Shown piece after piece: positions 9,278 through 36,642 of a stretch of 36,781 nt of DNA. The DNA is taken from positions 1 to 36,781 of the forward strand of contig JAHJSS010000019.1 in assembly GCA_018830225.1 (NCBI GenBank). Direction: 5' to 3'. Position 1 is the stretch's first letter; each line of letters starts with the position of its first letter. The position numbers and the translations under genes are program-made. The notes under the pieces are model-generated. The model was not told where the DNA came from, made no database searches, and was given only the letters and a program-made list of their open reading frames with translations. The DNA comes from Nanobdellota archaeon (GTDB lineage Archaea > Nanobdellota > Nanobdellia > Woesearchaeales > UBA11576).

Positions 9278-9423
9278 GGGGCTGTAGTATAACCTGGCTA
9301 GAATAGCTGGCTCCAGTCTTGGAGCGATGAGGCAATCTGCCGATGATTAAGGTGTCTGGTATGCCAAGACGTTGCTCTTGAGGAAGATACCAGCGGATCT
9401 GGGTTCAAATCCCAGCAGCCCCA
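9278..9423 (+). tRNA. trnW: tRNA-Trp (CCA anticodon) with a long anticodon-loop intron
   Basis: Acceptor GGGGCTG (9278-9284)/CAGCCCC (9416-9422); T-arm CTGGG TTCAAAT CCCAG (9399-9415); anticodon stem GCTGG (9306-9310)/CCAGC (9390-9394); loop CT-CCA-G then intron. 3' CCA not encoded. The D-stem is weak. Confidence 0.9.
9317..9388 (+). other. Predicted 72-nt tRNA-Trp intron at the canonical 37/38 position
   Basis: Removing 9317-9388 restores the 7-nt loop CTCCAGA between the anticodon-stem halves. A complete BHB motif was not established by hand. Confidence 0.7.
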
Positions 9424-29679: not shown

Positions 29680-32600
29680 CTAAATCTTCTGGATGAATCC
29701 TCTTTTCGGCTCGAAGATGTCTCCAGCCCTCTTCAGCTTTTCGATGACCTCCTCTGCCTTGTCTGCAGAGACTCCCTTATCCTGTGATTCCCTGATGACA
29801 TCCTCTACAGGGATGGTCTTGCCTATCTTGTTCTCCAGGTCATTTATGACCTCCTTTATCACGATGATATGGCTCCTTGCAGAGGATGATACGCCCGTCG
29901 TGAGCACGTCAACATCAATCTTCCCGGTGTCAGGGTCGATGCCGATCTGCGACATGCAGAAATGAAGCAGCTCAATAGCCTTCCTCGAGTCCCTCTTGGT
30001 GACCTTGTCAGAAAGCCTTGACCTGGCCGACGCTTCAGCAAGCCTCACAAGCCCCTCAAGCTGCCTCGCAGTGATAGGGATTGCCTTGATGCCGCCTTCC
30101 TCACCGCCAGAACCGCGCATCTTAACATAATATGCTTTTATTTCCTCCATAGCACCGTCGGTAAGCTTCGGCACACAGTTCCTCCGCGCATAGGCTATGT
30201 ACTTCCTGAGCATGTCAGTCTCAATGTCGCACGTACCTGCATCGCTGGTCTGGTGGAGATTCAGGACAAAGCCTGCAAGCTTCTCATCGTGCTCCCTGTT
30301 CGGCAAATCCCTTATAGGAAAAATAAGATCGAACCTGCTGATGAGCGCGGGAGGAAGATCAATCTGCTTGCCAAGGATCTCGTAAGGATCGAACCTGCCC
30401 CACTTAGGGTTGGCTGCCGCAAGGACAGTGGTCTCGCACCGAAGAGTGGCCTGGATATTGGCCTTAGAGATAGAGACTGTCTGCTGCTCAAGCGCTTCGT
30501 GCATCGCATCCCTATCCTCCTTGCTCATCTTGTCCATCTCATCAATCATGCAGAACCCCTTATTGGCAAGGACCAGCGCTCCTGCCTCCAAAGCCCAGCC
30601 GCGGAGGAACTCATCCCTAACTACAGCAGCAGTAAGGCCTGCACCTGAAGCACCCTTGCCGGACACGTACCTCGACTTAGGGGCGATGAGCTGAGCACGC
30701 TTGATAAGCTGAGAGTTATGGACAATTATAGCATTAGAGACAAAGTTGTGAGTATTGTCCACCTGAATATCATAGACGTATTCGCCGTCATTATCAATCT
30801 CTTCCTTGCTCGCCACAGCATCCCAGAAAACATCGCTCTCGGCAGCTCCCTTAAGCAGTCCAATCTCAAAGCCATCTATGCTGCGTGAATCCATTTCATC
30901 CACAATCTGCTTTAAATGGCCGAAGGAAGGGTTCCTGTCACCTTTTTCGTAATGCTGATAACTCGAACGGGATATTCCGAAATCGAACTGTGAAAGACCA
31001 TGCTTGAGACGTACGAAACGCAGGATTTCCTTCAACCCCGGAACCACCCTTATGTTGGTGTTAAACACCCTATCCATAGCCATGACTGCATCCAGCTGGC
31101 CCGTCTTATCTTTAGAGAAGAATCCTATCTTCTGGCCATATGCAATAACATCCACACCAGAAATACGCAGTTCGTAGTAATCCCTGACAATCTTCGCGGC
31201 TGTGTTGGTGGCGCACTTCCTCTTCTGCGACAGGGTGGATATAACCCCGAAACGAAGCAGCGCAATCTTCACATCCTCAATAAGATCCCTGCTCTTTGAA
31301 ACGAGCTCTATCTGCCGACGCCCTTTCCTGACATGCGCATCACACTCGAACAGCGCCCTCAAAAACTCCCGCATCACAAACTCAGGAGACCTGTTCACTG
31401 CTTGAGGAATTGTTTTTCCAGCAGATTTCAAGTACAGCCTGCTGTCGATCTTCTCCAGGAGACGAGCAAACTCTATACTCGTCGTGTAAGCCTCTTCAGC
31501 GCTCTTCCCTGAATGCGGGCGCCTGCGCGTAACGCGAACACCAAACTTATCCTCAAGAATCCTCTTGAAGTCAGACAGAACCGCCTCATTGTTGTTGGTA
31601 AGAGAGACGAATGCCCCTTTCTCCTTAAGCCTGAGCCAGCCGTCACCAACAAGATAGCCCAACACCCTAGCAATCTCCCCGTCGATGTGGTGAGGTATCC
31701 TGATGCTGACCTTACTACCCCCCCTCGACCTCAAAAAGTCCGTCGGACACGGCTGCATAGCGCTCTGAGTGACTATCTTTGAAGGAGACGCTATGAAATC
31801 ACCTTCCTTCATCTCCTCTGCAGCCTTAGGCACAATAAAACCATTATTTGCCGTAAAGAAAGGATGGTTCTTAGTGACGACAATGCTGTTACCTGTCTTG
31901 GTCCTAATCTTCAGAAGCCTATCTTCCTTCCGCCTCCATACAACCCTAGATGTATTAGAACCCGCTTTTGCATTCTCATCAAATGAAACTACATTGAAAG
32001 GGTCAGAACAGGCATAGCCCCCGTCTCCTAGCAGCTTACCCATCCTACAATCAACAAGTTCACCTACTCTGACAATTGAGCCGTCGGATAAAACCAATTT
32101 GGAGTCCTTATGCAAGCACTTCCCTGCGCCCGGGTCGCCCACAAGAAGGATGTGCATGTCACCCCTAGTGACAACCCCATCGGTCCGCACCTTCCGCACA
32201 CCTCCAAGAAGCTGGAGGATTATAGCCTCCTTGACCTTGTCATGGCCGTATATCGACGGAGCCATGGAATTCACCAGCTTGTTGAGTATCTTCGGGTCCC
32301 TCGAGAGCTCAATTATCTTCTTCTCCTCTTCTTCTTTGATAGTTATGTCGCCGAAGCTCTCCTCCAGAGGCTCCACAAAATTCGAGTCTATCATGAGGTC
32401 AAACCTAACAAGCTTTCCGCCATCCTTCGAAGGGATGGGAACCTCCTTAACCTGGCCGACGACATGCACCTTTGTCCCGGGGTTGGTCTTCTTGTCGCTC
32501 AGAGTAGAGACGAGGTCGTTCTTCAGGAAGATGTCAATCCTCTTCGGCTGGTCACCACCCTCAAGATTCTCAGGAATCTCCTCAAGGACAATCTTCTGAG

Positions 32601-33102
32601 CATCGACAAGCTCCTTAGATACCAGCCTGAACTTGCCCTTCCTGCCGCACCCGCACCTGCTCGGCTCCTTGAACTTGGCCTCAAGCTGGATGACAGACAT
32701 GATATTGCCGCAGCTGGGGCACTCGAACCTCGCAGTCGTCACCTGAGGCCTGACATCAGACTTCTGACGGACAAGACCATTGAGGCAGATCAGCCTGTCT
32801 ATGTTCAGGCTCCTTATGTCCCTTATCTTTATCTCCTGGCTCTTAGGGATGTTCTTGAAACGGACAAAGAACCTGGTCACTGATTCAGGGACATCAAGGT
32901 TCTTGATGGCAATCTCGAACGCCTTCATGACCTCCTCAGGCTGGTCGAGGAGAAGATCTGCGAGCTCAGGATCGAACTTAGAAAGATCGACGAAGTCAAT
33001 GACCATGAAATTATTTCCGAGACTAACTGCCTCAAGAAGCTGAACATGGTAGTCCTGCTCGATGAAGTGCTCAAACCTCTTTATCTGTTCTGATACATCC
33101 AT
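29680..33102 (-). CDS. mcm: Replicative helicase MCM, interrupted by an intein
   Basis: Exteins contain the MCM zinc finger CPSCGNIM...CGCGRKG, GDPGAGK/SQLIKRAQLIAPKSRYVSGKGASGAGLTA, MIDEMDKM and RFDLIF motifs. 1140 aa including a 468-aa intein. Confidence 0.97.
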   Translation of the reverse strand: MDVSEQIKRFEHFIEQDYHVQLLEAVSLGNNFMVIDFVDLSKFDPELADLLLDQPEEVMKAFEIAIKNLDVPESVTRFFVRFKNIPKSQEIKIRDIRSLNIDRLICLNGLVRQKSDVRPQVTTARFECPSCGNIMSVIQLEAKFKEPSRCGCGRKGKFRLVSKELVDAQKIVLEEIPENLEGGDQPKRIDIFLKNDLVSTLSDKKTNPGTKVHVVGQVKEVPIPSKDGGKLVRFDLMIDSNFVEPLEESFGDITIKEEEEKKIIELSRDPKILNKLVNSMAPSIYGHDKVKEAIILQLLGGVRKVRTDGVVTRGDMHILLVGDPGAGKCLHKDSKLVLSDGSIVRVGELVDCRMGKLLGDGGYACSDPFNVVSFDENAKAGSNTSRVVWRRKEDRLLKIRTKTGNSIVVTKNHPFFTANNGFIVPKAAEEMKEGDFIASPSKIVTQSAMQPCPTDFLRSRGGSKVSIRIPHHIDGEIARVLGYLVGDGWLRLKEKGAFVSLTNNNEAVLSDFKRILEDKFGVRVTRRRPHSGKSAEEAYTTSIEFARLLEKIDSRLYLKSAGKTIPQAVNRSPEFVMREFLRALFECDAHVRKGRRQIELVSKSRDLIEDVKIALLRFGVISTLSQKRKCATNTAAKIVRDYYELRISGVDVIAYGQKIGFFSKDKTGQLDAVMAMDRVFNTNIRVVPGLKEILRFVRLKHGLSQFDFGISRSSYQHYEKGDRNPSFGHLKQIVDEMDSRSIDGFEIGLLKGAAESDVFWDAVASKEEIDNDGEYVYDIQVDNTHNFVSNAIIVHNSQLIKRAQLIAPKSRYVSGKGASGAGLTAAVVRDEFLRGWALEAGALVLANKGFCMIDEMDKMSKEDRDAMHEALEQQTVSISKANIQATLRCETTVLAAANPKWGRFDPYEILGKQIDLPPALISRFDLIFPIRDLPNREHDEKLAGFVLNLHQTSDAGTCDIETDMLRKYIAYARRNCVPKLTDGAMEEIKAYYVKMRGSGGEEGGIKAIPITARQLEGLVRLAEASARSRLSDKVTKRDSRKAIELLHFCMSQIGIDPDTGKIDVDVLTTGVSSSARSHIIVIKEVINDLENKIGKTIPVEDVIRESQDKGVSADKAEEVIEKLKRAGDIFEPKRGFIQKI
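30715..32118 (-). other. Intein in the MCM Walker A motif with LAGLIDADG endonuclease and HTH segments
   Basis: Starts at Cys after GDPGAGK (CLHKDSKLVLSDGS), block B VVTKNHPFF, LAGLIDADG-like VLGYLVGDGWL and FLRALFECDAHV, ends DNTHNFVSNAIIVHN before Ser. 1404 nt = 468 codons in frame. Confidence 0.95.
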
Positions 33103-36266: not shown

Positions 36267-36291
36267 AAAATAAATGATTGCACTTAATATG

Positions 36292-36474
36292 TCAGCATAC
36301 CCCCAATCTGTGATTGGTGGTTAGTGGCGGTATGCTGAGCACACTTAAAAATCCTGTGGGATTTTTGGTGTCCTAAAAACCGCGGGTTTTTATGATGCTC
36401 AAAAGGCGGCGGGGGTAAGCGAAGCGAACATGCCACCGGTCAAAGACCGGTGGTCCCCTGCCGCTTTTGACATC
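36292..36474. repeat. Dense cluster of inverted repeats / candidate structured RNA or REP-like element
   Basis: TCAGCATACC/GGTATGCTGA; CCAATC/GATTGG; AAAAATCC/GGATTTTT; AAAAACC/GGTTTTT; long stem 36394-36414/36455-36474; inner CCACCGGTC-AAA-GACCGGTGG. Confidence 0.8.
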
Positions 36475-36491: not shown

Positions 36492-36642
36492 CTTCACACG
36501 GGTAAATTCAAAAAGGGTGTCATGCCGCGCTCGCTGCGATTCTCTTTCTGCCTATTTTTGCTGAACTGCGATATTTAGCGCCTATTTTGCACTCAGCTCG
36601 CTAGGTGTCATGACACTTAACTTGACAGCACCCTTCACACGG
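36492..36642. repeat. Element bounded by CTTCACACGG direct repeats
   Basis: CTTCACACGG at 36492-36501 and 36633-36642; AAGGGTG/CACCCTT inverted repeat; GTGTCATGACAC palindrome at 36605-36616. Confidence 0.65.

Follow-up and report, generated by a model that had tools for sequence, protein, structure and literature searches.

PATEs of Haloquadratum walsbyi are too short to carry a transposase, have palindromes near their termini as in IS605-type transposons, are inserted in many copies without target duplication, and hold small repeats nested inside (PMC3119063). These small mobile repeats attack PATEs, and one of them, SMR-A, is a gene-less repeat that measures about 110 bp, has terminal inverted repeats and inserts into palindromes of the PATE/IS605 type by a mobilisation that is not known (PMC3119063). 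ISDra2 of Deinococcus radiodurans carries both tnpA and tnpB. It is inserted 3' of TTGAT (PMC2806898). REP/REPIN elements with TnpA_REP are intergenic palindromes related to a Y1 transposase, and are marked by GTAG at the hairpin foot (PMC8266576). For insertion sequences of Woesearchaeota and DPANN, nothing on elements such as the one described below was found in the open-access literature searched.

The window, that is the whole stretch of 36,781 nucleotides under analysis, contains a 183-bp element that is very probably a palindrome-associated derivative of IS200/IS605, non-autonomous and mobilised in trans by a Y1 transposase. It is assigned to the PATE type because autonomous Y1 elements of the order share its subterminal hairpins. 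As in PATEs of Haloquadratum, its length leaves no room for a transposase (129-183 bp among copies, no ORF), palindromes lie close to both ends, and many copies are present without target duplication. In contrast to these PATEs, the element resides in Woesearchaeota, has another sequence and freely varying outer stems, and holds a covarying two-hairpin module; classical IS200/IS605 ends have shorter stems than its outer stems. Like ISDra2, whose TnpA is the nearest solved one to the transposases of the order, it is inserted 3' of TTGAT, but it is non-coding and tolerates TTNAT. The element is thus of a known kind, an IS200/IS605-derived PATE, in a new lineage, and composite with a widespread module that is defined by shape.

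Boundaries, copies and insertion sites

The hairpins had been described from the letters of the DNA in an earlier note, which placed them within 36292-36474. All the stems were found in the sequence at the coordinates given there, and no credible ORF was detected across the locus, in agreement with the statement that none explains the hairpins. As DNA, 36287-36474 folded with -51.9 kcal/mol (z -8.4), and as RNA with -87.1 kcal/mol (z -7.0); in neither case was any of 200 dinucleotide shuffles equally stable, indicating a stability far beyond that of shuffled sequences. The extent needed a shift: the hairpins lie inside it as proposed, but the true unit is 36289-36471, and positions 36472-36474, which close the 'CATC' side, accordingly belong to the host flank. 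The features of the locus are listed below.

36284..36288, + strand: target site directly 5' of the element, TTAAT (consensus TTGAT; left flanks of 22 copies)
36289..36471, + strand: whole non-autonomous element, 183 bp, ATGTCAGCATACC to CTGCCGCTTTTGAC (copy boundaries; empty sites at other copies)
36292-36301 / 36329-36338, + strand: left outer stem TCAGCATACC / GGTATGCTGA of the left-end palindrome 36292..36338 (fold)
36300..36320, + strand: left inner hairpin CCCCCAATC-TGT-GATTGGTGG (model R1, 24.6 bits, E 6.5e-5)
36337-36341 / 36396-36400: enclosing pair GAGCA / TGCTC (read from the sequence)
36342..36395, + strand: two-hairpin module, 54 bp, missing from five short copies (183- versus 129-bp copies)
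36341..36371, + strand: module hairpin H1, ACAC-(bulged T)-TAAAAATCC..GGATTTTTG-GTGT (covariation)
36347-36366: A/T stem AAAAATCC/GGATTTTT (read from the sequence)
36372..36394, + strand: module hairpin H2, C-(C)-TAAAAACC..GGTTTTTA-(T)-G (covariation)
36375-36391: A/T stem AAAAACC/GGTTTTT (read from the sequence)
36401-36414 / 36455-36468, + strand: outer stem AAAAGGCGGCGGGG / CCCCTGCCGCTTTT of the right-end palindrome 36401..36468 (fold)
36418..36432, + strand: conserved right-end core AGCGAAGCGAACATG, 5' of the right inner hairpin (same core after the tnpA stop in L023/L074)
36433-36453, + strand: right inner hairpin CCACCGGTC-AAA-GACCGGTGG (model R1, 30.9 bits, E 8.1e-7, top match of the window)

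The left outer stem encloses the inner CCAATC-TGT-GATTGG. It is kept with a different sequence in the G003 variant (L021), and carries two changes in the window copy (A to C, T to C), which are not compensatory. The right outer stems differ among relatives, whereas the core surrounded by them is constant.

A genome-wide copy search contradicted the possibility, raised in the earlier note, that the locus has no other copies. Counted as matches from sequence searches, the element family was detected at 8-9 places of the same genome with unrelated flanks. Five short copies (on contigs C67, C66, C62, C23 and C12) are identical, 129 bp in length and devoid of the middle part, with the identity spanning 132 bp; the copy in the window exceeds them by exactly 54 bp. 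The long copies are that of the window and those of C22 and C39, both of which are cut by contig ends and possibly represent the halves of one copy, and a degenerate copy is located on C47. The contigs of this MAG (1.32 Mb, 92.6% complete), which is assigned to the Woesearchaeota by its closest named relatives, are broken at repeats. A dozen more copies were found in the related Woesearchaeota MAG JACQXV (apparently identical with G009), and variants of the element are present in G003, G007, G055 and JAGVOD. The right-end core was not found in viral contigs. A different long repeat, also palindromic and of the type ATTTGTTTAGCT...AGCTAAACAAAT, recurs (L007, L053), and the copy on C23 sits inside it.

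The five bases on the left of the element were TTNAT in 19 of the 22 copies read and TTGAT in 10, a conserved left-boundary oligonucleotide as in PATEs, looser than that of ISDra2. As the base on the right was A in nearly all of these copies, the cleavage point is fixed only to within +/- one base. Joined flanks were searched in sister species, and empty sites were obtained at two loci, C67 and C62, which carry sister copies of the window copy. The C67 locus was empty in G001 (CTTGGTTTTTGACATTG, against CTTGGCTTTTGAT, element, ATCGG in the own genome), the empty site TTTTTGACATTG matching the own TTTTGAT/ATCGG, and the C62 locus was empty in G003 (AAAGTTCATATGTTTTTGCG, against AAATTTCAT, element, ATATTTTTGCG). 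Since these sites of G001 and G003 are empty, insertion takes place without target duplication, and it is exact. For the window copy itself, an empty-site counterpart was not found in sister species.

Relation to Y1 transposases of the order

The Y1 tnpA elements of the order carry a hairpin with the consensus CCACYGGTC-TnT-GACCRGTGG both upstream and downstream of the gene. We constructed a covariance model, R1, from 11 hairpins of autonomous elements, none from the family of the window, and ran it over both strands of the 36.8 kb. The right inner hairpin ranked first and the left inner hairpin third, with rank two taken by the right hairpin read on its reverse strand; the left hairpin is the counterpart of the end hairpin in autonomous elements. 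Both end hairpins were also recovered by R1 in other copies of the element. Thus, the end palindromes are held in common with IS200/IS605-type transposons in relatives of the same order.

On the right side, the core follows immediately on the stop codon of a gene whose C-terminus is of the IS200 type (L023/L074), and a similar right end accompanies a Y1 tnpA of G175 (L056/L061), the TnpA homologues of which were detected in 41 of 288 relative genomes. Behind the same tnpA, on contig C29 of G175, a small hairpin element is apparently inserted at the TTTGAT ending the Y1 element. The TnpA homologues of the order match PF01797, with E down to 1e-16, as well as NF033573, a model for IS200/IS605 whose cut-off was reached by one of three TnpA tested. 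Residues H64, H66, Y127 and Q131 are invariant, indicating the HUH motif and the single catalytic tyrosine. The closest solved structure is ISDra2 TnpA (2xm3 group).

Neither a PF01797 Y1 transposase nor a homologue of the order's TnpA was detected in the own assembly (92.6% complete), and no Y1 transposase with these ends was found in G003 and G009, two relatives rich in copies. Different ends accompany the Y1 genes of G007 and G009 and most Y1 genes of G084, and an intact autonomous element with exactly both same ends was not found.

We infer a single-strand route with an enzyme acting in trans. The hairpin at each end would be exposed in single-stranded DNA, presumably at the replication fork or during repair, and would be bound by the Y1 HUH transposase of an autonomous relative. 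This enzyme would cut 3' of the TTGAT-like sequence on the left and after TTTTGAC on the right, and the joined ends would give a circle with TTTTGAC linked to ATGTCAGC, which would be inserted 3' of another TTGAT-like site, again without target duplication. The TCA at the foot of both hairpins is complementary to the TGA of both cleavage sites, and this complementarity would fit guide-type recognition.

The inner two-hairpin module

The part missing from the short copies consists of the two hairpins H1 and H2. The module occurs at the same place in similar elements of relatives (L092, L093 and L095; G002, G003, G021 of another family), and is also present alone between genes (L098, L099, L102). 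A model was built from 11 sequences of this kind, in which 95% of cells are paired and 9 pairs show double changes, against 2.6 in shuffles. With E up to 0.01, this model matched 83 of 118 genomes belonging to the order; when genomes were sampled across the phylum, the module was detected in 77 of 193 (E up to 1e-5), a few of them outside the order. The copies number up to about 40 per genome and are mostly intergenic; in the own genome 48 matches were obtained at E up to 0.01, with some sites counted on both strands. Among 102 distinct sequences, 20 of the 21 pairs were changed on both sides (409 cells against 103 shuffled), in an alignment that was fitted to the model and so leans towards it, and in which some sites were entered on both strands. 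The outcome without covariation that the earlier note had allowed for is therefore contradicted, covariation being strong in the inner module. The unpaired bases are also conserved: the bulged base of H1 is mostly T or G, and the unpaired C of H2 was found in 57 of 58 sequences.

Wobble pairs (G-T or G-U) make up about 1.5-2% of the paired positions; in the better-scoring half, 16 of them were counted beside 1091 Watson-Crick pairs. When ORFs overlapping module copies were not taken as genes, the nearest genes were found in all orientations (16 ++, 11 -+, 10 --, 7 +-). These few wobble pairs and the mixed orientation of neighbouring genes favour hairpins of DNA over hairpins of RNA, although the module may have a function as RNA. 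A role as regulatory 5'-UTR was rejected, as no orientation bias was observed. An outer palindrome was likewise rejected as a general feature of the module: palindromes of at least 8 bp were found in 6 of 52 flanks, against a mean of 3.2 for swapped flanks.

With SMR-A of Haloquadratum the module shares the lack of genes and the small size, and it may likewise be inserted into palindromes of the PATE/IS605 type (PMC3119063). It differs in its length of 54 bp and in having two covarying hairpins with bulged bases; where SMR-A has terminal inverted repeats, inverted repetition beside 52 of the module copies was little above that of swapped flanks. In L107 and L110, module copies occupy the apex of a palindrome that belongs to another element. 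A Y1 tnpA of G084 (L058, contig C35, about 43200) is interrupted by an insert of about 100 bp with the module, while its counterpart L051 is uninterrupted. Several copies in JACQXV have their left palindrome split between CAATC and TATG by a double hairpin that is also 54 bp long but of a different type. We regard the module as probably another small mobile element, which lies inside the larger one.

The alternative, that the module is an ancestral part of the element and was deleted from the short copies, falls only a little short of an even chance. The order left end, module, right end is kept in L092, L093 and L095, and core deletions are known for the PATEs of Haloquadratum (PMC3119063). 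Against this, the module is found alone at many places, relatives of it occupy different positions in other elements (L107, L110), and short copies outnumber long ones also in G007 and G009. For the module we tentatively propose, as an idea rather more likely to fail than to hold, that it is an undescribed minimal DNA element of Woesearchaeota, either mobile or useful to the host, which is defined by its shape and a few extrahelical bases instead of its sequence, is spread by an unknown enzyme and is repeatedly nested in IS200/IS605-type elements.

Other readings of the element and its setting

The earlier note had offered the locus as a candidate for a novel structured ncRNA. A structured ncRNA gene or cis-regulatory RNA, with the hairpins acting as RNA, would agree with the very stable RNA fold, with the covariation of the inner module and with the conserved unpaired bases. 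This proposal found no support in the behaviour of the element, since the insertions are exact, with empty sites in sister species, the genes next to module copies show all orientations, and the number of wobble pairs is low for RNA. Moreover, the end hairpins are common to transposase elements, and Rfam gave no match at the gathering score for the element, the only match in the window being a tRNA. Altogether, an RNA gene is an unlikely explanation of the locus.

The other suggestion of the note, a REP-like element, was right in so far as the element is palindromic, mobile, dispersed between genes and linked to Y1 (IS200-type) transposases. That a domesticated TnpA_REP (RAYT) moves it as a REP/REPIN (BIME) element is very unlikely, however: GTAG, the mark of REP at the hairpin foot (PMC8266576), is absent from the element sequence, the element is asymmetric, its left and right ends being defined and one target site preferred, its composite structure is much longer, and the transposase genes in question resemble those of IS, occur in several copies and have ends of their own. 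The missing GTAG foot, the two defined ends and the fixed target thus place it in the PATE type rather than with REP. That the element is a TnpB/omega-RNA remnant of the IS1341 type, with the right hairpin as part of the omega RNA, is barely tenable in spite of its IS200/IS605 affiliation and the presence of one TnpB gene in the own genome, because the right end is not contiguous with this tnpB, the locus lacks both the GCGAAGCGARCATGCCACC core and the hairpins, and a similar right end in relatives lies directly behind tnpA, not tnpB. This single TnpB-type gene (L176, G000:C9:8717-8914) was also rejected as a source of the element, its ends being unrelated.

Several other features were observed in the window and in the genome. 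Directly downstream, 36501-36634 is occupied by another dispersed repeat, about 133 bp long (GGTAAAGTCAAG...CTTGACAGCACC, with imperfect terminal inverted repeats), for which at least 14 more copies with 88-92% identity and sharp ends were found in the own genome. The tRNA recognised by Rfam, at 9278-9423, was missed by ARAGORN; it probably contains an intron, since it is 146 bp long while the model has 71 positions. At 29680-33102 on the - strand, an MCM helicase gene carries an intein with a LAGLIDADG endonuclease domain; archaeal genes for PolD (DP2), TBP and MCM are present in the genome. A multi-hairpin family with the core CGAGACACTCAAACTGTTCAACAGTTTGGTGTGCCAAAGCATCTCTGATGCTTTGAGCA is sequence-identical at four places (L144, L145, L151, L153).

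As a PATE-type derivative of IS200/IS605, the element is ordinary in principle, and the module is the part worth following. The element explains the recurring contig breaks in these MAGs, and supplies ends and a target site for testing. The module offers a clean test of recognition by DNA fold instead of sequence, as its stems vary, its bulged bases stay, and it is present in most genomes of the order. In this uncultured archaeal group, then, the small genomes are shaped by Y1-type (single-strand) transposition and by its parasites.
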